NCBI GenBank assembly: GCA_018883185.1 | Contig: VEQP01000020.1 | Location: 1-54,918 of the forward strand | Reading direction: 5' to 3' | DNA length: 54,918 bases | Origin: Nevskiaceae bacterium | GTDB taxonomy: Bacteria > Pseudomonadota > Gammaproteobacteria > Steroidobacterales > Steroidobacteraceae | Shown here: one piece after another, positions 5,023-26,537 of the stretch | Numbering within the stretch: position 1 is the stretch's first letter | Layout: every line of letters starts with the position of its first letter | Program-made: the position numbers and the translations under genes | Notes under the pieces: model-generated | Told to the model about the DNA's origin: nothing | What the model saw: the letters and a program-made list of their open reading frames with translations, nothing else | Databases searched by the model: none

Positions 5023-5077
5023 GGGTCCTCCTGATGTCCGTATTATTGCCGACGGAACTGCCCACGGGGGACCGGAA
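5023..5077. promoter_or_regulatory. Short divergent region between GH36 and symporter genes
   Basis: Only 55 bases separate the two chosen start codons. The region holds the GH36 ribosome site (CCTCCT on the plus strand, 5027-5032) and a GGGGGA ribosome site for the symporter at 5066-5071. I see no clear -35/-10 pair and no copy of the CTTATATAAG palindrome found in the sulfonate island. Two back-to-back promoters must overlap here or lie inside the neighbouring coding ends. Confidence 0.4.
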
Positions 5078-11065: not shown

Positions 11066-11502
11066 GGCTTCGGGCGACTAAGTAGCGCCCGTACGCCAGC
11101 CTCGATCTGCTCCATCATCAACGTAAAGCCATCACTCTCCCCGTAATACGGATCAGGGACCTCACGATCACCGAGAAAGAGCTCGATGGGGGTTGCCACG
11201 CCCGCCGGGCAACGAGCCTGCAGCTGCGCAAGGTTATCTCGATCCATCGCGAGGATCAGATCATGACTCGAAAAGTCTACTGCGGAAATTTCGCGGCAAC
11301 GAAACGCTTTCAGATCGTACCCACGCGCGGCACAAGCTTCGATGGAACGTGGGTCTGCCGTATCACCGACGTGCTTGTCCTTGAGGCCCGCAGAGCTGAA
11401 ATGCCATCCCGTTGCACCAGCATGAGTCGCTAAAGTGCGCGCGACAACCTCAGCGGCCGGGGAGCGGCAATAGTTACCGGCATCGACGAACAAGACTTTC
11501 AT
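11062..11502 (-). CDS. Low-molecular-weight phosphatase-fold protein lacking the catalytic Cys
   Basis: A 146-residue protein of the low-molecular-weight protein tyrosine phosphatase fold. The P-loop reads FVDAGNYCRSP, where active members have V-C-x-G-N-x-C-R-S-P. The nucleophilic cysteine is Asp7, encoded by GAT. Arg13, Cys12 and the general-acid loop DPYYG (Asp117) are intact. ATG 11502 is set by the overlap with the dctP stop (ATGA) and by the family N-terminus MKVLFV. Without the Cys it should not act by the normal cysteinyl-phosphate route; a phosphate/oxyanion-binding or regulatory role is possible. It is cotranscribed with TRAP genes and DUF1838. The arsC gene at 40650 shows the same fold with an intact Cys. 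Confidence 0.85.
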   Translation of the reverse strand: MKVLFVDAGNYCRSPAAEVVARTLATHAGATGWHFSSAGLKDKHVGDTADPRSIEACAARGYDLKAFRCREISAVDFSSHDLILAMDRDNLAQLQARCPAGVATPIELFLGDREVPDPYYGESDGFTLMMEQIEAGVRALLSRPKP

Positions 11503-12536: not shown

Positions 12537-12545
12537 GGCGCTACC

Positions 12546-13832
12546 TCAGGCGAGTCCCAACCAGCGCGGCAGCGTGAGCACCAGCGCCGGGAAGTAGGTG
12601 ATCAGGAAGATCACGAGTACCTCGACCGCCAGAAACGGCAGCAGAGCCTTGACGATGTTCTCCACACTCTCGCGCGCGACCGATGCCGTGACGAACAGCA
12701 GCAGCCCCATGGGCGGCGTCGCCAGACCGATGGTCAGGTTGACGCACATGATGACGGCGAAATGCACCGGATCGACGCCCATTTCGATGAACACCGGCGA
12801 CAGCACCGGACCGAGAATCAGGATCGCCGGGCCGGCATCGAGAAACATGCCGACGATGAAGAGCAGTATGTTGACGAGAAAGAGCAGACCCGTGACGTTG
12901 TCGGTCACCGATAGCAGACTGTCAGCGATCCCTTTGGCCAAGCCGGAAACCGTCACGAGCCAGCCTAGCGTCACGGCGGCCCCGACCAGCAGCAGGATCA
13001 CACCGGATTGCAGCGCCGTGTTGCGGAAGATGGTCGCAAGTTCGGCACCGCGTGCCTTGCGCAAGACGAACACAGTCACGAACAATGCATAGGCCACTGC
13101 GACCGCTGCAGCTTCGGTCGCGGTGAACACACCGCTCAACATGCCACCGAGCAAAATCACCGGGAGCAGCAACGCCAGCCACGCCGCACGTAGGGCTGCA
13201 CCCCGCTCCGACCAGCTTGCGCGCGGTTTGGAGGGCGGCAACTGGTAGCGATTGGCGAGCACTCGAATCGTCCCCATCAAGCCGAGCCCGATCAGGATGC
13301 CGGGAACCACACCGGCCGCAAACAGCGCGCCAACTGATACGTTCATCACGAAGCCGTAGAGCACCATGATTCCGGAAGGCGGAATGATCGGCCCGACGAC
13401 AGCGGCTGCAGCCGTGACAGCCGCGGCAAACGGACGTGGATAGCCCTCCCGCTCCATCGACGGGATCAGCATCTTGCCGATGGCGGAGGCGTCGGCTACG
13501 GCAGAGCCCGAAATGCCGGCGAAGATCATCGAGGAGAGCACGTTGACCTGAGCAAGACCGCCGCGCACGTGACCCACCAAAGATTGCGCAAAGCGCACGA
13601 TGGATGCGGTGATGCCGCCGGCGTTCATGATCTCGCCGGCGAGAATGAAGAACGGTACGGCAAGCAAAGGAAAACTGTCGATGCCGTTGTAGAAACGGGC
13701 CAGCAAGGCTGGAAAGTATTGGGTCTCGCCATCGAGCAGAAGACTGAGACCGGGGCCAAGCAGCAGGGCAAAGAATACCGGTGTGCCGAAAGCCATCAGC
13801 AGGATGAAAAGCCAGAAGAAGGCGACCGACAC
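12546..13832 (-). CDS. dctM: TRAP transporter large permease DctM
   Basis: A 428-residue integral membrane protein with about 11-12 hydrophobic segments, usual for DctM. Typical blocks are visible: FALLLGPGLSLLL near the start, AGISGSAVADASAIG near residue 110, PIIPPSGIMVLYG, and NLTIGLATPPMGL near residue 380. It forms the ion-coupled transport channel with DctQ and takes substrate from DctP. It starts three bases after the dctQ stop and ends nine bases before dctP. The gene order Q-M-P is one of the common TRAP orders. Full length with no disruption. Confidence 0.95.
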   Translation of the reverse strand: MSVAFFWLFILLMAFGTPVFFALLLGPGLSLLLDGETQYFPALLARFYNGIDSFPLLAVPFFILAGEIMNAGGITASIVRFAQSLVGHVRGGLAQVNVLSSMIFAGISGSAVADASAIGKMLIPSMEREGYPRPFAAAVTAAAAVVGPIIPPSGIMVLYGFVMNVSVGALFAAGVVPGILIGLGLMGTIRVLANRYQLPPSKPRASWSERGAALRAAWLALLLPVILLGGMLSGVFTATEAAAVAVAYALFVTVFVLRKARGAELATIFRNTALQSGVILLLVGAAVTLGWLVTVSGLAKGIADSLLSVTDNVTGLLFLVNILLFIVGMFLDAGPAILILGPVLSPVFIEMGVDPVHFAVIMCVNLTIGLATPPMGLLLFVTASVARESVENIVKALLPFLAVEVLVIFLITYFPALVLTLPRWLGLA

Positions 13833-13835
13833 GGC

Positions 13836-14402
13836 CTAGCCCTCCGAATCCTGCTGCAGCACGGGAACCACGCCGACCAGCAAGCCGACGTCACGCACGC
13901 CGAGAAGCGCCAGTGCCAACCGAGTACATACCTCGAGTGAAACCAGCGTCAGCGCGAATAACGAAACCGGCAATACAGCGTAGATCCAAGCCATCCGTAA
14001 CGGCAGCGCGGTCGCTACGATGCTGGCACCACGCGCAACGAAGTCCACGCTCTCGATCAGGAACATCACGCAGATCCAGCCGACGAGCAGGTTGACCACG
14101 ATACCGACGAACAGCAACGCGCGACGCGGCAGCCCCTCGATGAAAGCGGTGATGGCCACGTGCCCGGTCGCGCGATAGCCCATGGGCGCGGCCAGCAAGG
14201 CCGACCAAACCAGTGTCATTCGCGCGGCTTCCTCAGCCCAATCCAGCGTGTGGTTGAAAAGGCCGCGGGAGACGATCTGGGCCAATGCAACCGCGAGCAT
14301 CAGCGCAAGCAGGAAGGCAGAAATGGAAAGCCCCCATCTTGCGATGGGGGCGTTCACCGTTTCGAGGCCGCGCGCGGCGGCAGACAGGAGTCGGTTCAAC
14401 AC
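13836..14402 (-). CDS. dctQ: TRAP transporter small permease DctQ
   Basis: A 188-residue protein with four hydrophobic segments and the DctQ signature region TLDWAEEAARMTLVWSALL (about residues 57-75), then APMGYRATGHVAI. It partners with DctM in the inner membrane. It starts nine bases after the TonB receptor stop, so outer- and inner-membrane uptake steps share a transcript. The C-terminus is slightly longer than in small relatives, with no obvious extra domain. Confidence 0.92.
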   Translation of the reverse strand: MLNRLLSAAARGLETVNAPIARWGLSISAFLLALMLAVALAQIVSRGLFNHTLDWAEEAARMTLVWSALLAAPMGYRATGHVAITAFIEGLPRRALLFVGIVVNLLVGWICVMFLIESVDFVARGASIVATALPLRMAWIYAVLPVSLFALTLVSLEVCTRLALALLGVRDVGLLVGVVPVLQQDSEG

Positions 14403-14411
14403 CGCCCCATC

Positions 14412-16709
14412 TTACTTGCTGCCGAAGTTGAACCGGGCTTGGATGCCAAAGTACCGATCAGCGTCGCGCGGGATCTGCAGACGGGGCGCACCGCCCGGAC
14501 CACCAGCGGTTCTTAGCACCGTGTACGACTCATCCGTCATGTTGCGACCGACCAACGCCACGCGGAAGCGCTCGTCCGGGCTAGTGAGAGCCAAGGTCAG
14601 ATCGACCGTGGTGTAACCCGGGATACGCAGAGCGGCAGGCTCGTTGAGATCCGAGAAGCTTTCGCTCTGGTAAGCGACGACCACATTCGGCGACAGCGTG
14701 TAGTTGCCTACCGGAATGGCCATCTCACCCACCAGCGAGGCCTTCCACTCCGGAGCCAGCGGCAGCTTGGTGCCAGCGCGGACGGTAGAGGTCTGGCCTG
14801 GAGGCGTAAAGAAGCTGTCGACCTTGGCATCGTTGTACGACACGCCACCACCGACGGTGAGTATGTCGGTCGGCTTCAGCTGTACGTCGATTTCGACGCC
14901 CTTCGAAGACACCTCGCCCGCATTGGTGAGCGTGGTGATCAGGGTGCCGTTCAGGAACAGGAAATTGTTGGCCTGGAAGTCGTCGTACTTGGCGTTGTAC
15001 ACGGCGGCGTTAAGCAACATACGTCCATCGAGCAACGAGCTCTTGATGCCCGCTTCGAACGAATCGGCTGTTTCCGCCTCGATGACCGGCGTGTTGTTCA
15101 CAGTCATGTTGAAGAACACGTTGTACGCCGGCCCCTTGTAGCCGCGAGCGTAGGACGCGTAAACCATCATGTCGTCGTTGACGTCGAACTGCACGCCCGC
15201 GCGTCCCGACACGTTGTCGGACTTGTTGCTGCCGCGAAAGCCGGAGAGGTCCGTACGGATGCCGGGCTGGCCGGCGAACGTGGTGGGAACGCGATCGTGG
15301 TAGTAGCTGAGATCATCTTGGGTCCAGCGCAAGCCGGCGATCACCCGGAAGTCGTCGAGCACGTTCCAGGTGCCATCGGCGAAAGCCGCGAGGTTCTTGA
15401 AGTCAGCGCCGAAAGTGGCGTTCGAGAACGTGCTCACGTAGGTCGAGGCACCGGAGCGGCACGGGCGCTGACCGGTCGCATCCACCGCGAGAGTGCTCGC
15501 CGTGCAGTTGAAGATGTTGCGCTGGAAGAAACGTTCCGAATCGGTCTTCGAGTAGTAGAGACCTGCGACGTAGTCGACCATGCCGCCGCCCTTGGAGGCG
15601 ATACGCACTTCCTGCGAGAACGTCTTGGTCTTCTGCGGACCGAAGTCATGCAACTGAGCAAAAGCGTTGCCCACATACGGCGCGGGCGTGTCGATCCAGT
15701 CGCCTTCGCGGATTTCGGTAGCGTCCCAGGTACGGTAAGCGGTGATGGTGGTGAGGTTACCGAGACTGGTTTCGATGTCGCCCTGCAGCGACAGACCCCA
15801 AGCCTCTTCGATGGACTTCATCTGCAGGTCCTGCTTGACCTGACGGGTGTCATCGCCTGCGAAAACCAAACCGCTGTAAATCGCTGCATAAGCGGCGGCG
15901 TTGGCGCCAGTCGGGGCCGTACCAATGACTTCGACACAGCAGTTGTCGGTGGACTTGCGATAATCGCCCGTGAAAGTCCACAGATTGGCGTCGCTGCCGA
16001 ACTCCCACATGGTGCGTACGCCGCGACGGTCGTAGCCGTTCAGATCGCCGCCCGCTGCAGTGCCGGAGATATTTTTGATGTAACCATCGAACTCGCTCAC
16101 CATCACGGTGGTTCGCGAGCGCACATTCTCCGAAATCGAAGTATCGAAGGCGCCCTTGATGCGCACTTCGTTGTCTTCGAACCAACCGATATCCACGTAG
16201 CCAGCGTTGCCGCTGCCCGGACGCTTGGAAACGATATTGACGACGCCCGCAGAGGCGTTCTTGCCGAACAGGGTGCCCTGCGGACCACGCAGCACTTCGA
16301 CGCGCTCGATATCGTAGAGATCACCGAAGGCTTCACCCGCCGACGAGAGCACGACACCGTCGAGCACGGTGGCGACACTGGGCTGAGCGGCGATCGCGAA
16401 GTTGATGGTGCCGACACCGCGCAGGAACAAGGACTGGTTCAGCGAGGTGTTGGTCTTGCGAATGTTGAGCGAAGGCACGAGCGCTCGCAGACCTTCGACG
16501 TTGAAGCCGCCGGTGGATTCGGCGAGTGCGCCACTCACCACGGACACGGCAATGGGCACATCCTGCAACTTCTGCTCGCGCTTCTGCGCGGTCACGACGA
16601 TTTCATCAAGGCGGGTGTCGTTACCGCTCTGCGCCACGGCGGCCCAAGGCATCAGGGCAGCGCAGGCCACGGCCACGGCTTTTGCAATGAGGGTCTTGCT
16701 GGTCGACAT
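14412..16709 (-). CDS. TonB-dependent outer-membrane receptor
   Basis: About 765 residues. Signal peptide MSTSKTLIAKAVAVACAALM...AVAQS; a DEIVVTAQKREQ segment fits the TonB box/plug start; the plug shows GVGTINFAIAAQPSVATVLDGVVLS and IERVEVLRGPQGTLFGKNASAGVVNI. The rest is a beta barrel ending ...IQARFNFGSK. ATG 16709 was chosen because AGGGGA precedes it by seven bases and the signal peptide starts there. It takes a bulky solute across the outer membrane with TonB energy. It is the first gene of the receptor-dctQMP unit and sits directly behind a copy of the palindromic operator. The substrate is probably the glycoside or sulfonate handled by this island; the sequence alone does not say. Confidence 0.94.
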   Translation of the reverse strand: MSTSKTLIAKAVAVACAALMPWAAVAQSGNDTRLDEIVVTAQKREQKLQDVPIAVSVVSGALAESTGGFNVEGLRALVPSLNIRKTNTSLNQSLFLRGVGTINFAIAAQPSVATVLDGVVLSSAGEAFGDLYDIERVEVLRGPQGTLFGKNASAGVVNIVSKRPGSGNAGYVDIGWFEDNEVRIKGAFDTSISENVRSRTTVMVSEFDGYIKNISGTAAGGDLNGYDRRGVRTMWEFGSDANLWTFTGDYRKSTDNCCVEVIGTAPTGANAAAYAAIYSGLVFAGDDTRQVKQDLQMKSIEEAWGLSLQGDIETSLGNLTTITAYRTWDATEIREGDWIDTPAPYVGNAFAQLHDFGPQKTKTFSQEVRIASKGGGMVDYVAGLYYSKTDSERFFQRNIFNCTASTLAVDATGQRPCRSGASTYVSTFSNATFGADFKNLAAFADGTWNVLDDFRVIAGLRWTQDDLSYYHDRVPTTFAGQPGIRTDLSGFRGSNKSDNVSGRAGVQFDVNDDMMVYASYARGYKGPAYNVFFNMTVNNTPVIEAETADSFEAGIKSSLLDGRMLLNAAVYNAKYDDFQANNFLFLNGTLITTLTNAGEVSSKGVEIDVQLKPTDILTVGGGVSYNDAKVDSFFTPPGQTSTVRAGTKLPLAPEWKASLVGEMAIPVGNYTLSPNVVVAYQSESFSDLNEPAALRIPGYTTVDLTLALTSPDERFRVALVGRNMTDESYTVLRTAGGPGGAPRLQIPRDADRYFGIQARFNFGSK

Positions 16710-16735
16710 CGTTGAGTCCCCTGGTTGTTGTACGC

Positions 16736-16754
16736 GCACCACGGCCTGTGGTGC
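16736..16754 (-). other. Perfect stem-loop in the leader of the TonB receptor gene
   Basis: GCACCAC, a five-base loop, and GTGGTGC form a seven-base-pair perfect stem. It lies between the operator-like palindrome and the receptor start codon, so it would be in the 5' leader of a transcript from this region, or in the spacer of a GH31-receptor read-through transcript. It is not followed by a T run on either strand, so it is not a classic terminator. It might stabilise or separate the receptor message. Confidence 0.45.
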
Positions 16755-16784
16755 TTTGCATGATGACGCTAACAAAGATTGGTA

Positions 16785-16809
16785 TGTCTTACAACCCTTA
16801 TATAAGACA
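16785..16809. promoter_or_regulatory. Operator-like palindrome upstream of the TonB receptor gene
   Basis: The 10-base palindrome CTTATATAAG lies at 16797-16806 and is followed by AC. The outer arms TGTCTTA (16785-16791) and TAAGACA (16803-16809) form a second, spaced inverted repeat. The same CTTATATAAGAC is present at 23068-23079 between gntR and suyA and nowhere else that I noticed. It is most likely the binding site of the GntR regulator encoded at 22274-22993. The TATAAG part could also double as a -10 element. It lies within the 105-base gap between GH31 and the receptor gene. Confidence 0.65.
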
Positions 16810-16814
16810 TTGGA

Positions 16815-18857
16815 CTAGGCGACCGGGTGCCCCGCACGGACGAAAGCGGCGATCCGATTGAGGGGCAATTGCAGCCGGTGCACGCGACCACCCTCAATGG
16901 GTTGCGCGTCATCCAGCCAGCGCCACTCGCCCGCAGGCAGGTAGACATGGACCTCGCCGGAGCGCTCGAGACAGGGCGCAACGAGCAAATCGTCACCGAA
17001 GAAGAATTGATCCTCGAACGCCCACGCCGCCCGATCATCCGGACAGGCCAGCACCATCGGTCTTTGCACGGGCAGGCCGGTTCGCGAAGCCTCAGCCACC
17101 ACGCGCTGCAGATAGGGCCGCAGCCGCTCCCGCAAGGCCAGCGCCTCGCGAGCATGGCCTTCTGCTTCCGGGCCGTAACTCCAGGGCTCCCTCGGCCCGA
17201 TGCCATGCAAACGCAGATGCGCAGAGAAAATCGCCGCCTGCAACCAGCGCACGTACAGCACCGGATCGCGCTGATCGCCGTAGAAGCCACCGACGTCGGT
17301 GGCGTAGAACGGCGCGCCCGTGAGCCCCCAGCTCAGACCGCTGCGCAGGTTGCCCGCGAGGCCACCCCAATCCGCCTGCGGATCACCGCCCCACTGCGAG
17401 GGGTAGCGCTGCGAGCCCGACCATCCGGCCCGACTGAACAGGAACGCACCGTTGCGCGAGTACTTCTCTGCCGCCTCGTAGACGCAGCGGTTGTAGAGCA
17501 ACGCGTAGATGTTGTGCAGCGCGTCACCCTGCGAGCCATCGCTCGCCAGCATGTGCGGCTCGATCTGCTCACCGAAATCGGCCTTGATCATGTCGATGCC
17601 AAGTTCGAAGAGTTCGCGGTGCTGGTCTCGCCACCACGCGTAAGCCTCCGGATGCGTGAAGTCGAGCAGGCCCGACTCGGGAAGTTGCGTGAGCACGGCA
17701 CCGAAAGGCTCGGGATCCCAGGCATAGCGATAAGCCTCACCACTGCGCGCATCGCGCAGCAACCAGCCGCGTGCCGCAAGTTCGGCGAAGCGGGGATTCT
17801 TCACCGAGATCAGCGGGTACTCCCAGACACAGATGCGAAAGCCCAGCGCGCGCAGAGCCTCGATGGTGGGTCGCGGATCGGGGTAGCGCTTCGGGCACCA
17901 CTCGAACGCGAAACGCGTATCGGTGTCCTGCCAGGCCCGACCGTCGAAGGTGATGACCTCGCAGGGCATTTCGCGCCGCCGCACTTCGCGCGCCACGGCG
18001 AGGATTTCTTCGGCGTCCTTGTAGTACGCCTTCGAGAGGATAACGCCCAGACTCCAGGCCGGTGGCACGGGTGCACGGCCCGTGAGCTCGGTGTACTGCG
18101 CCAGCTGCTCGGCACCGCTTGTGCCGGTGAAGATGAACACATCGAGCGCCGGGTCCTCGAGCCACAGTACGTAAGCCCGCTGCGACCACGGGCCATAGCC
18201 CACGCCGTGTGTCACCGGCTGCGGCGTGTGCACGAAACTGCCCCAGCCCTCCGGACTCCAGGCAAACGGCACGTTCTTGTAACTCCACTCGGCATTCAGC
18301 CCGAGGGCATCCCGGTTGTACGAGCGGATCAACTGGCCGCGCTTGTCGAGGCGACCGGATTTCTCGCCGAGCCCATACACCGGCGTCGAGGCGCCGAGTT
18401 CCAACGTCAGCAGCCAGCGCTCGGCATGACGTGCTAAGGGCGGTAGGCGAAAGCGGCGCACAAAATGTCCATCGGTCGGCGAACCTTGCACGCGCTGTCC
18501 ATCGCGCTTGAGCTCGAAGGCGAACGGCGTGTGGCCGATCGTCAGAGTCAGTAAGTGGCCGTCAGCCGTCGTCGCCTCCAGGCACGAGGCAGTCGACTCG
18601 CCCTCGCCTTGCTGGCGCAACGCAACCGGCAGGGCTGTGGTCGATCCGCACAGAATGCCGTAATCGCGCGCATCCTCTGCGCTGCGTAGCCGCAGCCCGA
18701 ATTCGTGCAACGTGATGCGCAACTCGCCGAGCGAGGTCGGAACCTTGAGTTCGGCACCTTCGAGGCGAGGCGAGGCGGTGACGATCGCCGGCGCCATACG
18801 TCCCCAGTTTGGGGCGATGGGATCCAGAACATTTGACTCGGGGACGGACGCAGTCAC
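16815..18857 (-). CDS. Glycoside hydrolase family 31 alpha-glycosidase
   Basis: A 680-residue GH31 enzyme. The nucleophile is Asp427 in MIKADFGEQ and the acid/base is Asp492 in WGGDPQADW; PPAWSLG and LPLNRIAAFVRAG mark the domain edges. Overall it reads closer to alpha-xylosidase YicI than to sulfoquinovosidase YihQ. The YihQ residues recalled for sulfonate binding (R301, W304, Y508) are not clearly matched: the Tyr after the DxGG motif is Phe525, and an exact R-x-x-W is absent. There is no signal peptide, so it acts in the cytoplasm. Position in the kinase-aldolase-isomerase operon (12 bases after the isomerase) suggests it releases the sugar used there. It may be a divergent sulfoquinovosidase or cleave another alpha-glycoside. 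Confidence 0.9.
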   Translation of the reverse strand: MTASVPESNVLDPIAPNWGRMAPAIVTASPRLEGAELKVPTSLGELRITLHEFGLRLRSAEDARDYGILCGSTTALPVALRQQGEGESTASCLEATTADGHLLTLTIGHTPFAFELKRDGQRVQGSPTDGHFVRRFRLPPLARHAERWLLTLELGASTPVYGLGEKSGRLDKRGQLIRSYNRDALGLNAEWSYKNVPFAWSPEGWGSFVHTPQPVTHGVGYGPWSQRAYVLWLEDPALDVFIFTGTSGAEQLAQYTELTGRAPVPPAWSLGVILSKAYYKDAEEILAVAREVRRREMPCEVITFDGRAWQDTDTRFAFEWCPKRYPDPRPTIEALRALGFRICVWEYPLISVKNPRFAELAARGWLLRDARSGEAYRYAWDPEPFGAVLTQLPESGLLDFTHPEAYAWWRDQHRELFELGIDMIKADFGEQIEPHMLASDGSQGDALHNIYALLYNRCVYEAAEKYSRNGAFLFSRAGWSGSQRYPSQWGGDPQADWGGLAGNLRSGLSWGLTGAPFYATDVGGFYGDQRDPVLYVRWLQAAIFSAHLRLHGIGPREPWSYGPEAEGHAREALALRERLRPYLQRVVAEASRTGLPVQRPMVLACPDDRAAWAFEDQFFFGDDLLVAPCLERSGEVHVYLPAGEWRWLDDAQPIEGGRVHRLQLPLNRIAAFVRAGHPVA

Positions 18858-18869
18858 GCAGAGGCTCCG

Positions 18870-20273
18870 TCAGGCGAGCTCGAACACCGGCAGCTGCCAG
18901 CGTGCGGCAAGCGCTCGCAGAGCATCGCGATGGTCGCCATAAGCGAGAGCAAAGTGATGTTCCAAGGCCTCATCGAGTATGCGCGAGCTCACCTCAGCCG
19001 CCGGCGCATCGAAACGCACCGTGCCCGAGCAGCCTGTAAATGCCATCGGCGCACGCACCACCTCGGCGCCCGCGATCACGAGCTTCAATGCATTGCGCGA
19101 GCGCGACAGCCTCGCCAACGTGATACGACCGGGCTTGATCGGAAACTGATGCAGCAGCGGCATTCGTCGATTGGTATGGATAGTCGCCTCGGGCTTGACC
19201 TCGGGATCGCACATCGACAGCGGCGCAAGCCCGCAGTGCCACAGCACGGCAGTGTTATCCGCCGCCGTGATGTCGACAAGATCGGCCATCCACGCCGGCT
19301 CGCCGGCAAGTTCCTGCAGGATCAACTGGGTCAAAGAACCGTTGACATCGGCCTCGCAAGCCGACGGCACTTTCTTCTGGTTCATCATGGCCATGGGGCC
19401 GCAGGCGGCGCAGCCATATTCGGTGAACATCTCCGGCCAGCAGCGCACCGCGAGGCCGCGTGCGCCGGTGTCACGCTGCACGTCTTCGAGCGCGCAGAAC
19501 ACACGAAATGATCGATCGAGTTGGGTGGCGTCCACCTCGCCGAGCCCCGACACCTGGGCTTCCGTACTTTCTTTGACTGCGGCGACGCGCGATGCGTCAA
19601 TGCCGCGTGCTCGCTCGAACAACTCGCCAAGCTGTACTTGCTCGATGCGAATGTTTGCGAGCCGCGACAGCAGCTCCGGGTCGAACTCGCAAGTGTCGAA
19701 TCCGTCTGGATGTTTGCCCACCACCGTAATACGCGAATCGGCCAACGCGCCGAGCACGCGATCCACCGACCGCTCGCTCGCAGCCACCGAAGCAGGCGCA
19801 GGCGCGGCCTTGGATGCAGGAACGGCGTAGTCGCGCGCCAACGAGCGCAGCTGGGGCGCGAGGCCTGCCTCCGCAGGGTCCGCGTACAACGAGCCGTGCG
19901 CGATACCGGCACGACCCAGCGCATGGGCCGCGAGATTCAAGCCGCAATAGGCGTTCAAGCGCAGCCGGCCACCGATACGCGGCTCAGGTACCGCCCAGAT
20001 GGCGAGCGGTGTACGCGCTTCGCGGGCCAGCTTCACGGTCATGGTCGCATCAGTGAACGTCACCTGTAGGATCAGCAACAGGTCGATGGGGCCGGCGGCC
20101 TGAATTTCGCTCACGGCGCGCTCGGCTGCGTCGCGATCAAACAGTAATTCGCGCGGTCCCACCGTACGAATGCCAGCCGCCTCCAGCGCGGCAAACGCGC
20201 GGTTTTTCATTTCCTCGGCAAAAGGCACATCGAAAGTGGGCCGGGCGAGCGCGGCAACCCCGAACGTCAGCAT
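18870..20273 (-). CDS. Sugar isomerase of the fucose/arabinose isomerase superfamily
   Basis: About 467 residues. The C-terminal half shows the metal site of FucI/AraA enzymes: Glu307 in CEADVNG, Asp334 in LVDI and His346 in LWHCG. ATG 20273 was chosen because GGAGG lies eight bases upstream; a longer frame to 20351 overlaps the aldolase gene. Superfamily members convert aldoses to ketoses with Mn2+ or a similar ion. With a sulfofructose-type kinase and aldolase in the same operon, the expected reaction is sulfoquinovose to sulfofructose, the step done by the unrelated YihS in E. coli. That substrate is inferred from context only. No other isomerase is present in the operon. Confidence 0.8.
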   Translation of the reverse strand: MLTFGVAALARPTFDVPFAEEMKNRAFAALEAAGIRTVGPRELLFDRDAAERAVSEIQAAGPIDLLLILQVTFTDATMTVKLAREARTPLAIWAVPEPRIGGRLRLNAYCGLNLAAHALGRAGIAHGSLYADPAEAGLAPQLRSLARDYAVPASKAAPAPASVAASERSVDRVLGALADSRITVVGKHPDGFDTCEFDPELLSRLANIRIEQVQLGELFERARGIDASRVAAVKESTEAQVSGLGEVDATQLDRSFRVFCALEDVQRDTGARGLAVRCWPEMFTEYGCAACGPMAMMNQKKVPSACEADVNGSLTQLILQELAGEPAWMADLVDITAADNTAVLWHCGLAPLSMCDPEVKPEATIHTNRRMPLLHQFPIKPGRITLARLSRSRNALKLVIAGAEVVRAPMAFTGCSGTVRFDAPAAEVSSRILDEALEHHFALAYGDHRDALRALAARWQLPVFELA

Positions 20274-20277
20274 GGCA

Positions 20278-21339
20278 TCAGCCTCCAAATCCTTGGTAAA
20301 CGTGACGAAATTGCGCGCTAGGCGGCTCGATACGTGCACCGCCCGCGCCATACACCGCGTGCTGTAGCCACGGCGTAGCGGCGGTATCGGTCAGGGCGTT
20401 CAAAGAGCGCATGTAATCGGTGGCTTCGCCACGCAAGCCGCTGCGGATAGCCTCCCAATCGGGGAAGTGCTCGAAGGCCTTGAGCCATATGGCGCGGCCT
20501 GCCAGATAGCCGCTCGCTCCAGCACGGTAAGCATGCGAGAGCACCCGACGGAACTCCTCCATGCCCGCCCCCGCGGAGAGCATCACCCACGGCCGACCGG
20601 CCGCAGCACCCAAAGCATCGAACCACTGTTGAGCATCTTCCCATCCCGGTGCGCCGACGCCCGGCACGTCGGCGGCGGCCAACGGACTCTCTAGCTTGAA
20701 GAGGTCGACGCCGTACTTCGGATCAGCGAACGTGCGAACGCTTTCGAGCACGAGCTCGGGGTGCTTGCTGCGCATTTCGACGTAGTCGCGCGTTTGTTCC
20801 GCATCGCGAGCGAGCGGGTACACCAACAGCTCGAACACGAACGGTAAATCGTAGCGGGCGCAGGCCTCGCCGATGCGCTGTGTGAACTCCTGCTGCGCGC
20901 GACAGACCTGCGGGTCGGCGTCGGGGCGATACCACGTCAGTACCTTCACGGCGTCTGCACCGATCCGCTTGATCTTCTCCACCGACCAATCGTCGATTTC
21001 CGCAGACAGCCGGCCACCCGGCGTCTCGCGGAAAATCGAGTCTTCCAGCGTAACGATCAGGCCTCGCGAGGCTTGCAGCACAGTGACCCCTCGCGGATAG
21101 GCGTAGTGCGGATCAAGCAGCATCGCGGAAGACTCACCCTGTAGCTCGGCGATCAACATTTCTTTGAAAGCGGCCACGTCTTCCCAGGGCGCTTCGGGCG
21201 TACCTCGTTTGGCCTTGATCGGGTTCTTGATCGGCGGTCGCTGATCGACGGCAGTCATCTTGAACCGGCCTTGCGCGTCGGCCATCCGGCGCATGCCCCA
21301 GTATTTTCCAGCAGAGAGCGTCACCACGGAGGAAGTCAT
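20278..21339 (-). CDS. Class I aldolase of the LacD/YihT family, probable sulfofructose-1-phosphate aldolase
   Basis: A 353-residue TIM-barrel aldolase. The Schiff-base lysine is Lys215 in GVDLFKLESP, aligning with Lys193 in E. coli YihT (GADLYKVEMP, from memory). The GASGYLAGRAIW segment aligns with the phosphate/sulfonate loop of YihT, and FKMTAVDQR matches its N-terminal strand. LacD cleaves tagatose-1,6-bisphosphate and YihT cleaves sulfofructose-1-phosphate into DHAP and (S)-sulfolactaldehyde. It is longer than YihT (292), with extra residues at both ends. The ATGA overlap with a YihV-like kinase makes the sulfofructose-phosphate substrate more likely. LacD-type activity cannot be ruled out by sequence alone. 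Confidence 0.82.
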   Translation of the reverse strand: MTSSVVTLSAGKYWGMRRMADAQGRFKMTAVDQRPPIKNPIKAKRGTPEAPWEDVAAFKEMLIAELQGESSAMLLDPHYAYPRGVTVLQASRGLIVTLEDSIFRETPGGRLSAEIDDWSVEKIKRIGADAVKVLTWYRPDADPQVCRAQQEFTQRIGEACARYDLPFVFELLVYPLARDAEQTRDYVEMRSKHPELVLESVRTFADPKYGVDLFKLESPLAAADVPGVGAPGWEDAQQWFDALGAAAGRPWVMLSAGAGMEEFRRVLSHAYRAGASGYLAGRAIWLKAFEHFPDWEAIRSGLRGEATDYMRSLNALTDTAATPWLQHAVYGAGGARIEPPSAQFRHVYQGFGG

Positions 21340-22277
21340 CGGGTCTCCATAAATTGATCGCGCTCGGCCCGCATGGGCACGGCAGCGCGGCCGCCGAAGC
21401 GGCTGACTTTGAGAGCAGCCGTCGCGCTTGCGGCACGTACGGCAGCGAATTCATCCAGACCTTCAGCGAGGGCGAGCGCAAAAGCGCCATGCCACACGTC
21501 GCCGGCGCCCAGCGTGTCGACGGCGGTCACCGTGCACGCCGCTACGTGCTGCAGTGCGCCGGCAACACCAACTGGCTTGGCTGGGCTTGAGCGGCCATCG
21601 GCGATCAGCACGCCCTCGGCGCCGAGGGTGACGCAACACCACGCCTGATAGCGCTGCGCGAGTCTCTGCAGCGCCATCCCGGCGCTTTGGCGATCTGTGG
21701 CGCTGGCGTCGATGTCGCGCAACCCAGGCAATGAAAACGCCAGGTGGGTGGCTGCTTCGAGCAACCCACTCGAAGAGGTGACCGGAGTGTCTGCATCGAG
21801 TACTGCGGGCAATCCGCGCTCCCGCGCGCTGCGCAGCACCCATACGGCGCCCGCGGACCAGCGCGTATCCGCGAGCACAGCAGACACGTCGTCGAACGAC
21901 ACCGTCTCGTCCAACCATGCGCAGTCGGTGGGCATCTGCGGGTCGGTGTGATTGACGATCAGGCGCTCGCCGTGATCGTCGATGAAGACCGACGACACCG
22001 AAGATCCGTGGCCGGAGAAACGCCGCAGATAGCGGCAATCGACGCCGTATCGCTCAAGTTCCTGCTGCAGCACATCGGCCACCGGATCCGCCCCGACGCG
22101 CGTCACCAACCGGGCTTCACCACCCAGACGAGCCACCGTCACGGCCGCGGTCGCAGCCGGCCCACCGCCCTGCGTGAAAAACCCGGTCGCGCGGTGCTTC
22201 TCTGCACGCTGCGGCAGTTGCGGGGTGCGAAAGACATAGTCCTGCACCGCATGACCGACGCAGAGCACTACTGTCAT
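21336..22277 (-). CDS. PfkB-family sugar kinase, probable sulfofructose kinase (YihV-like)
   Basis: A 313-residue PfkB kinase. GGGPAATAAV (residues 37-46) and DTLGAGDVWHGAFALALA near the C-terminus are the family signatures. The N-terminal 109 residues align without gaps to E. coli YihV as I recall it. The residues reported to bind the sulfonate there appear as Lys27, Asn109 (LIVN) and Arg139 (LADTRW). This supports phosphorylation of sulfofructose at C1 with ATP. The gene overlaps gntR upstream and the aldolase downstream, each by ATGA, so the three are translationally coupled. Alternative PfkB substrates (tagatose-6-phosphate, fructose) lack this residue set. Confidence 0.85.
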   Translation of the reverse strand: MTVVLCVGHAVQDYVFRTPQLPQRAEKHRATGFFTQGGGPAATAAVTVARLGGEARLVTRVGADPVADVLQQELERYGVDCRYLRRFSGHGSSVSSVFIDDHGERLIVNHTDPQMPTDCAWLDETVSFDDVSAVLADTRWSAGAVWVLRSARERGLPAVLDADTPVTSSSGLLEAATHLAFSLPGLRDIDASATDRQSAGMALQRLAQRYQAWCCVTLGAEGVLIADGRSSPAKPVGVAGALQHVAACTVTAVDTLGAGDVWHGAFALALAEGLDEFAAVRAASATAALKVSRFGGRAAVPMRAERDQFMETR

Positions 22278-22993
22278 GAGGAGGTGACGTCGTAGACCAG
22301 CGTGCTCGTATCACAGCGACTGAGGCGCCACTCAACCCGCTTGCCGTTCATCGAAACGGCCACGCGCTCGATCTGCAGCAGCGGCGTACCCACCGGCACG
22401 CCCAAGCGGCGAGTGTCATCGCGACGGGCGATGTCGGCACGCAATTTTTCGTGTGTGGAGACGATGTTGATGCCGTACTCGCGCTGGTAGAGCGCATACA
22501 GGGCGTTCGGCAGCGGTGAGTGCCGGTCCAGATCTGGGTAGTACTGCACCGGTAGCACGATGCGCTCGATGGCAATCGGATGCTCATCGACGAAACGCGT
22601 GCGAACGATCTCGAACACCTCGGCATCGTCGGCGAGCTCAAGTGCCTTGGCTTCGAAAGACTTGATGCGGCGTCGCTTGATGATCTCGTCGCCACTTGTC
22701 GGGACAGCGCGCTTGCCATCAGGCCGAGACAGACGGAAAAAGCGAAACAACGATCGCTCCTGCGTCAACTCGGCGACGTAGGTACCTTTACCTTGGTGAC
22801 GGTCGATCACCTTGTCGAGCGCGAGCGCATCGAGCGCCTTGCGCACCGTGCCTTGGCTCACCCCGAGCTGCACAGCGAGGGCTTGCTCGCTTGGCAAGAC
22901 CTCGCCAGGCTTCCACTCGCCCGCGGCGATGCGCTTGACCAGCGTCTCGTAGACCTGGCTGTAGAGGGGTCGGTACTGCGGCGCGCTGTCCAT
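22274..22993 (-). CDS. GntR-family (HutC/UTRA) transcription regulator
   Basis: About 239 residues. The winged helix-turn-helix occupies roughly residues 5-75 (YRPLYSQVYETLV, LPSEQALAVQLGVSQGTVRKAL, GKGTYV), followed by a UTRA effector domain ending in RLSRCDT. The ATG at 22993 has GAGG eleven bases upstream. The in-frame ATG at 23056 has no ribosome site and lies only ten bases from the palindrome, so the shorter start is preferred. It heads the kinase-aldolase-isomerase-GH31 operon and diverges from suyA. The shared CTTATATAAG palindromes are its likely sites. The effector is probably a sulfosugar, a sulfosugar phosphate or sulfolactate, as UTRA domains bind small metabolites. Confidence 0.92.
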   Translation of the reverse strand: MDSAPQYRPLYSQVYETLVKRIAAGEWKPGEVLPSEQALAVQLGVSQGTVRKALDALALDKVIDRHQGKGTYVAELTQERSLFRFFRLSRPDGKRAVPTSGDEIIKRRRIKSFEAKALELADDAEVFEIVRTRFVDEHPIAIERIVLPVQYYPDLDRHSPLPNALYALYQREYGINIVSTHEKLRADIARRDDTRRLGVPVGTPLLQIERVAVSMNGKRVEWRLSRCDTSTLVYDVTSS

Positions 22994-23066
22994 CTTGGGC
23001 GTGTCCTCGAATGAAGAGCGCAATGGTAGCGTGGCGCTTGCAGACACAGGTGTCATGTGTTTAGTA

Positions 23067-23078
23067 TCTTATATAAGA
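23067..23078. promoter_or_regulatory. Operator-like palindrome between gntR and suyA
   Basis: The perfect 12-base palindrome TCTTATATAAGA lies in the 118-base divergent region (22994-23111). Its core and right flank (CTTATATAAGAC) are identical to the site upstream of the TonB receptor. Its position allows one regulator to control both the gntR operon and the suyAB operon. The A/T centre might serve as -10 for either direction, in which case the bound regulator would block polymerase. Confidence 0.65.
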
Positions 23079-23111
23079 CTTGCCCTCCGCAAGCGAACCA
23101 GGAGCCCTTGA

Positions 23112-23399
23112 GTGAGCGTCCCGCAACTGCTCGTGCATGACCACAAAGACAATGTCGGCGTGGTCGTCGTCGAAGATCTGAAAGCCGGCACAGATATGCT
23201 GTGCGTCGTCACGGAAGACAACTCGGACTTCCGTCTCATCGTCCGCCATGACGTCCCCATCGGTCACAAGGTAGCCCTCGTCGATCTGAAGGTCGGCGAC
23301 ACCGTGATCAAGTACGGGCAGGACATCGGTCGCATCGTCACCCCGGTCGCCCGGGGCGAACACGTGCACGTTCACAACCTCAAGACCAAGCGCTGGTAG
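23112..23399 (+). CDS. suyA: (2R)-sulfolactate sulfo-lyase, small subunit
   Basis: A 95-residue SAF-domain protein starting at GTG 23112, seven bases after AGGAG. It shows VVVVEDLKAG, IPIGHKVAL-like PIGHKVALVDL, VIKYGQDIG and the C-terminal EHVHVHNLKTKRW, a pattern I recall for SuyA. The fold is shared with the N-terminal domain of altronate dehydratase (UxaA). With SuyB it cleaves the C-S bond of (R)-sulfolactate, giving pyruvate and sulfite. The separate small ORF followed immediately by suyB (nine-base gap) matches the two-subunit sulfo-lyase layout. Confidence 0.9.
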   Translation: MSVPQLLVHDHKDNVGVVVVEDLKAGTDMLCVVTEDNSDFRLIVRHDVPIGHKVALVDLKVGDTVIKYGQDIGRIVTPVARGEHVHVHNLKTKRW

Positions 23400-23408
23400 G
23401 AAGCCACG

Positions 23409-24584
23409 ATGACCCAAGCCAACCGCAAGATCTGGGCTTACCGCCGCGAGAATGGTCGCGTCGGCGTCCGCAACTACGTCGCCATCCTGCCGGTGGACGA
23501 CATTTCCAACGCCGCCTGCGAAGCCGTCGCCAATAACATCAAGGGAACCATCGCGCTGCCGCACGCCTACGGCCGGCTGCAATTCGGCGCCGATCTCGAT
23601 CTGCACTTTCGCACGATGATCGGCACCGGCGCCAACCCGAACGTCGCCGCCTGCATCGTGATCGGTATCGAGCCCGGCTGGACGCAGCGCATCGTCGAGG
23701 GTATCGCCAAGACCGGCAAGCCGGTGGCGGGCTTCTGGATCGAAGGCAACGGCGACATCGCCACCGTGGCGGCAGCGTCGCGCAAAGCCAAAGAATTCGT
23801 GCACCAGACCTCGGGTCAAGTGCGTGTCGAATGCGACATCAGCGAACTGTGGGTTGCTGCCAAGTGCGGTGAAAGCGATACCACCACGGGGCTCGCCTCC
23901 TGCCCGACGGTCGGCAACATGTACGACAAGCTGGTACCGGCCGGGCTCTACGGCTGCTTCGGCGAGACATCGGAGCTCACCGGTGCAGAGCATTTGGCTG
24001 CGGCACGAGCCGCAACGCCCGAAGTGCGCGAGAAGTTCATGAAAACCTGGCAGGCGTACCAGGACGATGTCATCGAGGCCCACAAGACTTCCGATCTGTC
24101 CGAGAGCCAGCCCACCAAGGGCAACATCGCCGGTGGCCTCACCACCATCGAAGAGAAAGCACTCGGCAACCTCGAGAAGATCGGCAAGAAGGTCAAATTC
24201 ATTGATGTGCTTGAGCCCGCTGAGGCTCCGGCGCGCGGCGCCGGCCTCTACTTCATGGACACCTCCTCGGCCGCGGCCGAGTGCTGCACGCTGCAAGCGG
24301 CAGCGGGTTACGTGATCCATATTTTCCCGACCGGACAGGGCAACGTGATCGGTAACCCGATCATGCCGGTCATCAAGGTCACGGGAAATCCGCGCACGGT
24401 ACGGCTGATGCCGGAGCACATCGATGTCGATGTCTCGGGTGTCGTACGTCGCGAAATGACCATCGACCAGGCGGGCGACGCACTCATCGACTGCATCGCG
24501 CAGACCGCCAATGGACGATCGACGGCTGCCGAGGCCTTGGGTCACGTCGAATTCGTGATGACGAAGCTGTATCGCAGTGCCTGA
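23409..24584 (+). CDS. suyB: (2R)-sulfolactate sulfo-lyase, large subunit
   Basis: A 391-residue member of the UxaA superfamily. Blocks that fit SuyB include [73 protein letters not shown] and [12 protein letters not shown]. The altronate dehydratase motif around HTHGC is replaced by PHAYGR. Together with SuyA this enzyme releases sulfite from (R)-sulfolactate, the terminal desulfonation step. AGGAAG precedes ATG 23409. comC overlaps its end by eight bases. The neighbouring sulfolactate dehydrogenases make the assignment firm. Confidence 0.93.
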
Positions 24585-25587
24585 CGTTCGCCTGAGCCTC
24601 GCGCAAGCCGAGGATCTCGTCGCCGAGGTGTTGGAAGCCAATGGCGCGAGCCGCGCGGCCGCGCGCGCGACGGCCGCGGCACTCGTCGCCGCGGAGGCCG
24701 ACGGTCAAGCGGCTCATGGCCTGAGTCGCGTGAGTTCCTATGCGCTGCAAGCGCGCTCGGGCAAGGTCAACGGCACCGCAGTGCCTGTGCTGACGCGACC
24801 CGCGCCCGCCGTCGTTCGCGTGGATGCAGGGCTTGGCTTCGCCTACCCCGCTATCGACCTCGCCATCGAGGCCCTCGTTCCTACGGCGCGTGCCCAAGGC
24901 ATCGCACTGGCCGCGATCCACCATTCGCATCACTTTGGCCAAGTCGGTGCGCATGCCGAGCGACTCGCCGCTGCCGGTCTGGTGGCGTTGGTGTTCGGCA
25001 ATACGCCCAAGGCCATGGCGTTTTATGGCGGACGTGCGCCGATGCTGGGGACCAATCCGCTCGCCTTCGCGGCCCCGCTGCCGCAGGGTGATGCCCCGCT
25101 CGTTATCGATCTGGCGTTATCCGTCGCGGCGCGCGGCAAAATCGTCGCCGCGCAGAAGGCGAACAAAAAGATTCCAGATTCCTGGGCAGTCGATGCCGAG
25201 GGGCAACCCACCACGGATCCGACCGCCGCGCTCGCAGGAACGCTGGCGCCCATCGGTGGTGCCAAAGGTGGAGCGCTGGCGCTGATGGTCGAGATACTCG
25301 GCGCCGCATTGACCGCCGGAGCGTTCGGCTGGGAAGCCACATCTTTCTTTGAGCCGCAAGGCAAGGCGCCCGACATGGGCCATCTGTTCATCGCGATTGA
25401 TCCGGGCCCCGCCTCAGGCAACGCCTTTGGCGCCCGAATGACGGTTCTTGCCGAGGCGATGCGAGCGGATCCAGCCGTACGGCTGCCTGGCTCGCGGCGA
25501 CTCGCGGCACGCCAACTCGCTACCCAACAGGGTTTGCATATTCCGGACGCGCTGCACGCGGAAATTCGCACCCTGCTTCAGCCATAG
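24577..25587 (+). CDS. comC: (R)-sulfolactate dehydrogenase (Ldh2/malate dehydrogenase-like)
   Basis: A 336-residue member of the Ldh2/YbiC oxidoreductase family. Visible marks are [21 protein letters not shown] (catalytic His region), GTNPLAFA and [13 protein letters not shown]. The stretch [17 protein letters not shown]...LAGTLAP resembles ComC of Chromohalobacter from memory. It interconverts sulfopyruvate and (R)-sulfolactate with NAD(P)H. In slc-type loci it works with SlcC to turn (S)- into (R)-sulfolactate. The start is GTG 24577, overlapping the suyB end, with only a weak ribosome site. The downstream slcC is 17 bases away. Confidence 0.88.
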
Positions 25588-25604
25588 ACCGACGGAACCT
25601 CACC

Positions 25605-26537
25605 ATGCCCGAGATCGTCATCAGCGAATTCATGGACGAGGCCGCGATCCACACGGTGCTGGCCGGCCGTGATGTGCTCTACGACCCCACACTGGTCGAT
25701 AACCCGACCGCGCTGCAAGCGGCGCTGCGCGAGGCGCGGGCGCTGATCGTCCGTAATCGCACCCAGGTACGTGGTGCTCTGCTCGAGGCTGCGCCTCGGC
25801 TCGAAGCCGTCGGTCGATTGGGCGTGGGACTCGACAACATCGATCTGCCAGCCTGCAAGGCTCGCGATATCGCAGTGTTCCCCGCTACCGGCGCCAACGA
25901 TGTCTCGGTCGCCGAGTACGTCATCACGGCGATGCTGGTGCTGCTGCGTCGCGCCTGGTTCGCCACGCCCGATGTGGTCGCGGGACGCTGGCCGCGCATG
26001 ACCACCATAGGGCGAGAGGTCTCCGGCAAAACGCTGGGTCTCGTGGGTCTCGGCGGCATCGCGCGCGAAACCGCTGTGCGAGCCCGCGCACTCGGCATGA
26101 CGGTGGTCGCGTACGACCCTTTACTGCCGGCTGACCATGCGGCCTGGCAACTCGCCCGCCCTGTCAGCTTCGAGAGCCTCTTGGCCGCCAGTGACGTCGT
26201 CAGCTTGCATGTGCCGCTCACGCCCGCCACGCGCCATATGATCGGCGCAGCGCAACTGGCGGCGCTGCGCCCGGGCAGCATGCTCATCAATGCCGCGCGC
26301 GGCGGCGTGATCGACGAAGCCGCACTGATCGAAGCGCTGCGCAGTGGCCACCTTGGCGGTGCCGCGCTCGATGTGTTCGATCACGAACCCCTTGATGCCT
26401 CTCGCGGCGCCGCTTTCGCCGACCTGCCCAACCTGCTGCTGACGCCTCACATCGCGGGCGTCACTGAAGAGTCCAATGTGCGCGTCAGCGAGGTCACTGC
26501 ACGCGCGGTGCTTGCACACCTGAATCGCGGCGGCTGA
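25605..26537 (+). CDS. slcC: (S)-sulfolactate dehydrogenase (D-2-hydroxyacid dehydrogenase family)
   Basis: A 310-residue NAD-dependent 2-hydroxyacid dehydrogenase. The nucleotide fold shows GLVGLGGIARETA with an acidic residue at the following strand end (AYDP), pointing to NAD. Catalytic Arg (NAARGGVIDE), Glu (DHEP region) and His (TPHIAGVTEE) are present. The N-terminus IVISEFMDEAA and the RNRTQVRGALLEAAPRLEAVGRLGVG region fit SlcC as I recall it. It oxidises (S)-sulfolactate to sulfopyruvate. Last gene of the suyA-suyB-comC-slcC operon. Alone it could be mistaken for phosphoglycerate dehydrogenase, but it lacks an ACT domain and the operon fixes its role. Confidence 0.9.
   Translation: MPEIVISEFMDEAAIHTVLAGRDVLYDPTLVDNPTALQAALREARALIVRNRTQVRGALLEAAPRLEAVGRLGVGLDNIDLPACKARDIAVFPATGANDVSVAEYVITAMLVLLRRAWFATPDVVAGRWPRMTTIGREVSGKTLGLVGLGGIARETAVRARALGMTVVAYDPLLPADHAAWQLARPVSFESLLAASDVVSLHVPLTPATRHMIGAAQLAALRPGSMLINAARGGVIDEAALIEALRSGHLGGAALDVFDHEPLDASRGAAFADLPNLLLTPHIAGVTEESNVRVSEVTARAVLAHLNRGG

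Follow-up and report, generated by a model that had tools for sequence, protein, structure and literature searches.

A candidate regulon for the uptake and complete breakdown of sulfoquinovosides in a gammaproteobacterium

Sulfoquinovose is a sulfur-containing sugar of plants and algae. Its production amounts to about 10 billion tons a year (PMC12890257). Full degradation by sulfoglycolytic routes needs other bacteria, a few 'extended' clusters excepted (PMC9594981), and in the accessible parts of a 2026 review the oxidative sulfolytic routes are the only ones said to run to completion within a single cell (PMC12890257). The same review lists 2,3-dihydroxypropane-1-sulfonate (DHPS) or sulfolactate (SL) as products of the sulfoglycolytic Embden-Meyerhof-Parnas (sulfo-EMP) pathway and mentions hybrid EMP1/2 sets. 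Here we describe a locus on contig VEQP01000020.1 of assembly GCA_018883185.1 (Nevskiaceae bacterium; Steroidobacteraceae) in which genes of sulfo-EMP type and the sulfolactate genes suyA, suyB, comC and slcC lie on either side of a putative shared operator. The window, that is the whole stretch of DNA that was analyzed, is 54,918 nucleotides long and belongs to a genome that is 90% complete. The host is probably a freshwater organism and appears to be aerobic.

Several described systems share parts of this arrangement. The actinobacterium IMCC26103 resembles the window in carrying a fucose-type isomerase, a sulfofructose (SF) kinase, an SF-phosphate (SFP) aldolase, a sulfoquinovosidase gene, both sulfolactate sulfo-lyase subunits, a phosphoglycerate-dehydrogenase-like gene and a regulator (PMC11465081). 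However, it has a glycoside hydrolase of family 188 (GH188) and an ATP-binding cassette (ABC) transporter in place of the window's GH31, TonB receptor and tripartite ATP-independent periplasmic (TRAP) transporter, and it carries a sulfolactaldehyde (SLA) dehydrogenase; the accessible text names a 'sulfolactate dehydrogenase' once and lists no separate comC (PMC11465081). This set was called a possible new pathway, without experiment (MicroPubl Biol 2024, PMC11465081). In Paracoccus wurundjeri Merri, SlcC, ComC and SuyAB are clustered with a PF00294 kinase and a PF01791 aldolase, and the SLA dehydrogenase gap is the same as in the window, but the demonstrated upper pathway is of the Entner-Doudoroff type and acts on sulfofucose, and the cluster as described in the accessible text has no isomerase (PMC12421959). 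The pathway shown in Merri is a tandem sulfofucolytic one, and such coexistence in one bacterium was called unusual (mBio 2025, PMC12421959).

The sulfo-transaldolase (sulfo-TAL) clusters of Thermotogae and Chloroflexi that a 2022 review terms 'extended' also combine sulfoglycolysis with SuyAB in one cluster, but a transaldolase replaces the kinase and aldolase, and the phyla are different (PMC9594981). The sulfo-ASMO and sulfo-ASDO routes, like the pathway proposed here, use sulfoquinovose fully and release sulfite in one cell; they differ in that a monooxygenase or dioxygenase cuts the C-S bond at the sugar and gives glucose (PMC12890257). The sulfo-EMP pathway of E. coli (yih genes; L001) shares the kinase family, the class I aldolase superfamily and the chemistry, and differs in its YihS isomerase, YihQ-type GH31, YihU reductase and export of DHPS. 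Finally, plasmid suyAB clusters of Paracoccus and Methylobacterium (L097-L099) contain GntR, the operator (0-1 mismatch), suyA and suyB as in the window, with a sulfate exporter and, in two of the three, slcC and comC, but their fetched stretches hold no match to the window's kinase, aldolase or isomerase. A 2026 ISME J survey screened SuyAB, SlcC and ComC in selected genomes (PMC13372026). The literature searched, mostly non-subscription, yielded no account of this gene combination in gammaproteobacteria or of this GH31 group. The idea itself is less new than the original prediction implied (PMC11465081, PMC9594981, PMC12421959). What is new here is a hybrid sulfo-EMP set together with desulfonation in what appears to be one regulon.

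Gene content of the two halves

All nine frames that had been noted between positions 16815 and 26537 were found there, and their families agree with those first proposed (Table 1). The run is longer than had been recognized: transport genes (11499-16775) and a low-molecular-weight phosphatase gene had been overlooked. On the minus strand the order from 23056 to 11062 is gntR, kinase, aldolase, isomerase, GH31, TonB receptor, dctQ, dctM, dctP and phosphatase. The plus strand carries suyA-suyB-comC-slcC, and downstream of these come recC and a recB-like frame. The gntR and suyA genes diverge, with 55 bp between the gene starts, and this gap contains the palindrome TCTTATATAAGA.

Table 1. Features of the sulfosugar locus in window coordinates.
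Feature	Position	Strand	Basis
Low-molecular-weight phosphatase gene, near end of run	11062..11556	-	Pfam
TRAP transporter, DctP binding protein	11499..12536	-	Pfam
TRAP transporter, DctM	12546..13832	-	Pfam
TRAP transporter, DctQ	13836..14402	-	Pfam
TonB-dependent outer-membrane receptor	14412..16775	-	Pfam
Second putative operator copy, upstream of TonB receptor gene	16796..16807	.	1 mismatch
GH31 glycosidase, candidate sulfoquinovosidase of non-YihQ subgroup	16815..18857	-	Pfam GH31
Putative sulfoquinovose-sulfofructose isomerase, SftI/SqvD-like	18870..20273 (frame to 20351; likely start 20273)	-	NCBIfam NF048012
Putative class I sulfohexulose-1-phosphate aldolase	20278..21339	-	best solved match 8tnf
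Putative sulfofructose kinase, YihV type (PfkB family)	21336..22277	-	best solved match YihV 7ag6
GntR/UTRA regulator	22274..23056	-	Pfam GntR+UTRA
Shared putative operator TCTTATATAAGA, gntR-suyA gap	23067..23078	.	exact palindrome
suyA, putative small subunit of (R)-sulfolactate sulfo-lyase	23112..23399	+	SAF domain
suyB, putative large subunit of (R)-sulfolactate sulfo-lyase (UxaA family)	23409..24584	+	plasmid relatives
comC, (R)-sulfolactate dehydrogenase by context	24577..25587	+	NCBIfam L-sulfolactate dehydrogenase best model
slcC, (S)-sulfolactate dehydrogenase by context	25605..26537	+	2-hydroxyacid dehydrogenase

The closest solved relative of the kinase is YihV (7ag6, 181 bits), followed by another sugar kinase at 145 bits and ribokinase at 85, so that its description as YihV-like holds. 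The three residues on which the kinase assignment had been based (K27, N109 and R139) are all present, R139 corresponding to R138 of E. coli YihV; we take them to be the sulfonate site of sulfofructose kinase. Among 55 aligned kinases, one of them that of the window, K27 is conserved in 54, the arginine in all 55 and N109 in 39.

The aldolase is best matched by 8tnf (328 bits), a structure titled as the sulfohexulose-1-phosphate aldolase of Paracoccus onubensis strain Merri and presumably the aldolase of the Merri SuyAB/SlcC/ComC cluster. The tagatose aldolase LacD scores 143 bits and YihT 68. A Foldseek search with the AlphaFold model (pLDDT 88) likewise returns 8tnf (48% identity, E 2.4e-38). 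The residues aligned to YihT Lys193, presumably the Schiff base residue, and to Arg253 are kept in 48 of 48 aldolases, and the arginine-containing motif is also found in LacD. The enzyme had been called YihT/LacD-type, but it is nearer to LacD than to YihT and hence no orthologue of YihT. As far as best matches go, kinase and aldolase fall outside the tagatose clades, with LacD far behind.

The predicted isomerase has a match below cut-off to NF048012, the NCBIfam model of the SftI sulfoquinovose isomerase, which is a different family from YihS. Its AlphaFold model (pLDDT 92) is most similar in fold to L-arabinose and L-fucose isomerases, with template modelling (TM) scores of 0.5-0.6, 9-14% identity and a best E of 3.8e-20, and a sequence search of the PDB gave no match. 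Judged from sequence, the gene set is a hybrid sulfo-EMP set, because its isomerase is SftI/SqvD-like and not of the YihS family. The closest relative of the isomerase, in a gammaproteobacterial metagenome-assembled genome (MAG), is 96% identical, and others in MAGs of Gammaproteobacteria, Proteobacteria and Steroidobacteraceae are 71-86% identical; these MAGs appear to come from lakes and estuaries.

A single pass over 84,980 species genomes, with the isomerase as query and sensitive to close relatives only, yielded 62 loci (L022-L083) in gammaproteobacteria, Marinicaulis, Hyphomicrobiales, Hoeflea, Litoreibacter, Jannaschia and others. According to clustering of open reading frames (ORFs), 60 of the 62 loci have the aldolase and 55 have the kinase, some misses falling at contig ends, and suyB is found in 24 of the 62 as well as in the genome G167 (L021). 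Cultured bacteria that combine the core cluster with suyB include Hoeflea alexandrii (L053, L062) and Hoeflea poritis (L041). The isomerase is rare in the class, because only two of 369 genomes in a separate draw, the window's own and G167, hold it. G167 belongs to the same order and carries isomerase, kinase, suyAB, comC, slcC and GH188 (L020/L021).

On the other strand, SuyA is 66-76% identical to SuyA-like proteins of Paracoccus, Sinorhizobium and Methylobacterium and 48% identical to that of Cupriavidus pinatubonensis. Among the best 25 of 312 records, 13 top plasmid rows are 59.8-78.9% identical to SuyB and the next row is 41.2% identical, a gap on which we rejected an altronate or galactarate dehydratase. 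The only solved relative of SuyB is a galactarate dehydratase (117 bits). The C. pinatubonensis copy, near hpsN and hpsO, is 67% identical; the plasmid record compared is that of strain HN-2, not the literature's JMP134, which is the source of SuyAB (PMC12890257). ComC is 49-55% identical to Ldh genes, and SlcC 60-66% identical to a hydroxyacid dehydrogenase, in the suyAB clusters of Paracoccus seriniphilus, Sinorhizobium mexicanum and Methylobacterium oryzae. Neither solved-structure search alone supports these two assignments, because other enzyme types rank first: other Ldh-family enzymes (202 and 185 bits) precede sulfolactate dehydrogenase (146) for ComC, and phosphoglycerate dehydrogenases are the best matches of SlcC. 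Both are therefore assigned by context, that is by synteny and by 49-66% identity to the cluster copies, and not through a characterized enzyme. The SuyB grouping and the SuyA identities support the sulfo-lyase originally predicted for suyA and suyB; comC and slcC are candidates for the two dehydrogenases predicted with it.

The regulator and its putative operator

The GntR regulator, which we take to be SuyR-like, is 41-45% identical to GntR proteins near suyAB on plasmids of Paracoccus, Sinorhizobium and Methylobacterium. With up to two mismatches the window contains two copies of its putative operator, compared with 0.18 expected from shuffles, and one of 100 shuffles reached two. In the related loci, with up to one mismatch to TCTTATATAAGA, there are 72 sites in 30 of the 31 loci that have a gntR homologue (562 kb) and five sites in five of the 32 that have none (575 kb). 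The shared operator that had been proposed to link the two halves is thus backed across 63 loci.

Nearly all of the 72 sites (71; the exception is L059:547) are located close to where a cluster gene starts, at most 250 bp upstream or at most 220 bp inside the longest frame. The genes concerned are gntR/suyA, the kinase, dctQ, dctP, the TonB receptor, aldehyde dehydrogenase and slcC. The five sites of the gntR-less loci are also near cluster genes, four of them on truncated contigs. Sites upstream of the TonB receptor gene occur, as in the window, in L022, L023, L028, L029, L031, L034, L040 and L057. Separate sites before the kinase and before suyA are found in 13 loci (L034, L036, L038, L039, L041, L052, L053, L059, L060, L062, L065, L066 and L074).

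A related GntR with an exact or one-mismatch site also accompanies suyAB in Sinorhizobium, Paracoccus and Methylobacterium, and no relatives of the kinase, aldolase or isomerase were found in the fetched stretches of those clusters. The sugar genes thus appear to have come under the control of a regulator of the sulfolactate type. Sinorhizobium mexicanum itself, like some other strains, has a candidate cluster for sulfofucose (PMC12421959).

The sugar, the proposed pathway and its gap

Pfam confirms the predicted GH31 family of the glycosidase, although the enzyme is nearer to the alpha-xylosidase YicI (32.7% identity) than to YihQ (26.4%). Two aspartates at the columns of YihQ Asp405 and Asp472, presumably the catalytic pair, are kept in 16 of 16 sequences. 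K276, R307 and R315 are equally invariant (16 of 16), and the same columns are basic in neither YicI nor YihQ. R307 belongs to a loop and has no counterpart in YicI, and a lysine lies opposite YihQ Gln262 in one alignment and one residue off in another. These three residues may line the C6 pocket. The protein may be a plain alpha-xylosidase, but its basic residues and the occurrence of GH188 at the same position in other loci argue against this. It is well placed to represent a second kind of sulfoquinovosidase within GH31.

Downstream of the isomerase, GH31 is found in 15 of the 62 loci and GH188 in 42, and no locus has both; the distance is at most 700 bp for all 15 GH31 genes and for 40 of the GH188 genes. 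Neither is present in five loci, of which three (L026, L067, L083) are at contig ends. A GH188 representative matches the solved sulfoquinovosidase 8qc2 at 391 bits. All 43 GH188 copies, that of G167 included, keep the R-x-P-F-L-x-K motif with the Arg-Leu-Lys sulfonate triad (PMC10755693, PMC11465081), and a tested member of the family is specific for sulfoquinovosides (PMC10755693). Sulfoquinovose is likely the sugar of the pathway, because GH188 with an intact triad takes the position of GH31 after the isomerase. The glycerol genes glpD and glpK lie near slcC in six gammaproteobacterial relatives, with glpD alone in L032, and they fit the glycerol of sulfoquinovosyl glycerol as the source. 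The TonB receptor gene directly follows GH31 in eight relatives (L022, L023, L024, L027, L028, L029, L031, L040).

From gene content, conservation, operator distribution and closest relatives we infer the following substrates and direction of flow. The TonB receptor and the TRAP transporter would import sulfoquinovosides, and the GH31 enzyme would free sulfoquinovose. The isomerase would convert this to sulfofructose, the YihV-type kinase would give sulfofructose-1-phosphate, and the class I aldolase would cleave the latter into dihydroxyacetone phosphate (DHAP) and (S)-sulfolactaldehyde. Oxidation of the sulfolactaldehyde would fall to an aldehyde dehydrogenase from another part of the genome and give (S)-sulfolactate, which SlcC and ComC would invert to (R)-sulfolactate via sulfopyruvate, and SuyAB would split (R)-sulfolactate into sulfite and pyruvate. 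The GntR regulator, which is of a type that accompanies suyAB, would control transport and both the upper and lower pathway by binding TCTTATATAAGA, presumably in response to a ligand. We put the probability that the locus is one regulon for uptake and complete sulfoquinovoside breakdown inside a single gammaproteobacterium at roughly 80%.

The original prediction had one cell taking a sulfosugar to pyruvate and sulfite. Both halves are as it described, but the locus has no sulfolactaldehyde dehydrogenase. This is one of several observations that weigh against the proposed regulon. No aldehyde dehydrogenase is encoded in the window, and none of the 16 places in the genome that encode one is on the window's contig. 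Within the stretches covered, 23 of the 25 suyB loci also have none. The isomerase reaches 262 bits with NF048012, below the cut-off of 700, and ComC reaches 199 bits with its model, below the cut-off of 500. The aldolase is closer to LacD than to YihT, and the 34.6 kb fetched from G167 contain no relative of it. In all 16 GH31 sequences phenylalanine occupies the columns of YihQ Trp304 and Tyr508, taken here to be sulfonate residues, and the window's enzyme is closer to YicI. The window has recC and the recB-like frame beside slcC, where relatives have the glpD-glpK pair; another contig of the genome encodes a glycerol kinase that shares 77% identity with the L023 enzyme. In the whole genome, a 14-mer pattern of the operator with up to two mismatches has just two matches, and both fall in this locus, but a reversed control pattern also has two hits at two mismatches, so that the genome-wide count alone is not significant. 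The operator argument rests on location, not number, because of this control.

Only L032 and L033 among the 25 suyB loci have an aldehyde dehydrogenase, inside the operon and near an operator site. The best candidate in the window's genome, on contig C36, is 57-59% identical to these two enzymes; its neighbours are a phosphoribosyltransferase, a major facilitator superfamily (MFS) transporter and other genes with no evident link. The WNF, Arg and Arg residues proposed for the SLA dehydrogenase of R. leguminosarum (PMC10599462) are present in the candidate that was selected (L085), but they are not discriminating, because that enzyme is 61% identical to the succinate semialdehyde dehydrogenase (SSADH) of E. 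coli. A dehydrogenase inside the regulon was rejected, as the only two operator matches of the 90% complete genome are those of the window. A YihU-type reductase gave no hit in L020-L083, the stretches to which that search extended; the window's genome lay outside it.

A broader proposal, 'mineralising sulfo-EMP', is tentative and falls somewhat short of an even chance. It would comprise a distinct and widespread SftI/SqvD-like, YihV and class I aldolase pathway of gamma- and alphaproteobacteria, captured by a sulfolactate regulator, together with two undescribed enzymes. One would be a sulfoquinovosidase of family GH31 that binds the sulfonate in a distinct pocket (K276/R307/R315). The other would oxidize sulfolactaldehyde and may be an unknown enzyme, because the step is missing from nearly all of these clusters.

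Related loci and alternative readings

By ORF clustering, the low-molecular-weight phosphatase accompanies the cluster in ten loci, and it may have a part in sugar-phosphate turnover or in regulation. The run is closed by a DUF1838 protein (10160-11065), which among the loci searched is shared only by the nearest relative, L022 (82%). Genes for galactoside use (GH42, GH36, a sodium-solute symporter, GalT and galactokinase) lie at 935-8741, at least 2.3 kb from the end of the phosphatase gene. These are probably independent of the sulfosugar run, because none of the five frames has a relative in the 64 cluster stretches L020-L083 at E 1e-10.

Other loci show variations on the same core. In the alphaproteobacterial clusters inspected, a MauG-like di-haem protein (TIGR03981, below cut-off) is encoded between the TRAP genes and the kinase; it occurs in 25 loci (for example L041, L043, L044, L046, L047 and L052; representative L061:6298-8112). 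A DeoR regulator is present in 18 loci, two of which (L048, L070) have suyB. Many suyB-less loci, such as L044, L056, L071 and L078 (Aliiruegeria, Litoreibacter, Jannaschia), carry DeoR and an aldehyde dehydrogenase, and they make up a second, probably sulfolactate-forming type. Two Gfo/Idh/MocA genes and an amidohydrolase gene lie near the G167 cluster. In SAR324 (L050:12991-16868) an aldehyde ferredoxin oxidoreductase is encoded beside comC and slcC; isomerase and GH188 are present, and no relative of the window's kinase or aldolase was found within the locus. A different route for oxidizing the sulfo-aldehyde is possible there. Plasmid pZZM402 of Zymomonas mobilis ZM4 (L091:128-8647) may bear a hybrid sulfoglycolysis set: clustered on it are genes for an isomerase with 37% identity to that of the window, for a GH188-like protein (44%) and for an epimerase, a class II aldolase and a TonB receptor.

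The sugar could instead be sulfofucose (6-sulfo-galactose) or another epimer, with the isomerase forming sulfotagatose, the kinase phosphorylating it and the aldolase acting on the 1-phosphate. The closest match of the aldolase is the enzyme of Merri, a strain that grows on sulfofucose, and a sulfotagatose route was considered for the Merri kinase and aldolase, but these two were not induced by sulfofucose (PMC12421959). The nearby galactoside genes would suit such a sugar; however, they have no relatives in the 64 cluster stretches, and GH188, whose tested member is sulfoquinovoside-specific, follows the isomerase in 42 of 62 loci. We consider a sulfofucose pathway unlikely.

A second alternative is that the upper genes produce a C3 sulfonate, such as sulfolactate, that leaves the cell, and suyAB-comC-slcC uses external sulfolactate, so that the two halves are neighbours and not one pathway. 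The cluster's lack of a sulfolactaldehyde dehydrogenase is consistent with this, the 19 of 39 suyB-less stretches that have an aldehyde dehydrogenase could export sulfolactate, and two exporters, one of the TauE and one of the YeiH family, are encoded on further contigs of the genome. However, one regulator and one operator accompany both halves in gamma- and alphaproteobacteria, and eight suyB loci have in their cluster a gene for a YeiH-type sulfate exporter, as expected for sulfite or sulfate disposal. Two separate pathways thus seem quite improbable. A tagatose operon or other ordinary hexose or uronate operon without any sulfosugar (LacD-type aldolase, altronate/galactarate-dehydratase-type SuyB, lactate-type dehydrogenases) was rejected as very unlikely: every family has unsulfonated relatives and GH31 resembles alpha-xylosidase, but the best relatives of kinase and aldolase are YihV and 8tnf, SuyB is 60-79% identical to a group that includes sulfolactate clusters and 41% to the next row (best 25 of 312), and GH188 shares the position of GH31.

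If the reading as one regulon for sulfoquinovoside breakdown is true, some bacteria run sulfo-EMP and desulfonation alone, which would change how cross-feeding is inferred from genomes. The operator TCTTATATAAGA would make the mineralising type easy to recognize in genomes, and the GH31 enzyme and the missing dehydrogenase would be concrete targets for enzyme discovery.

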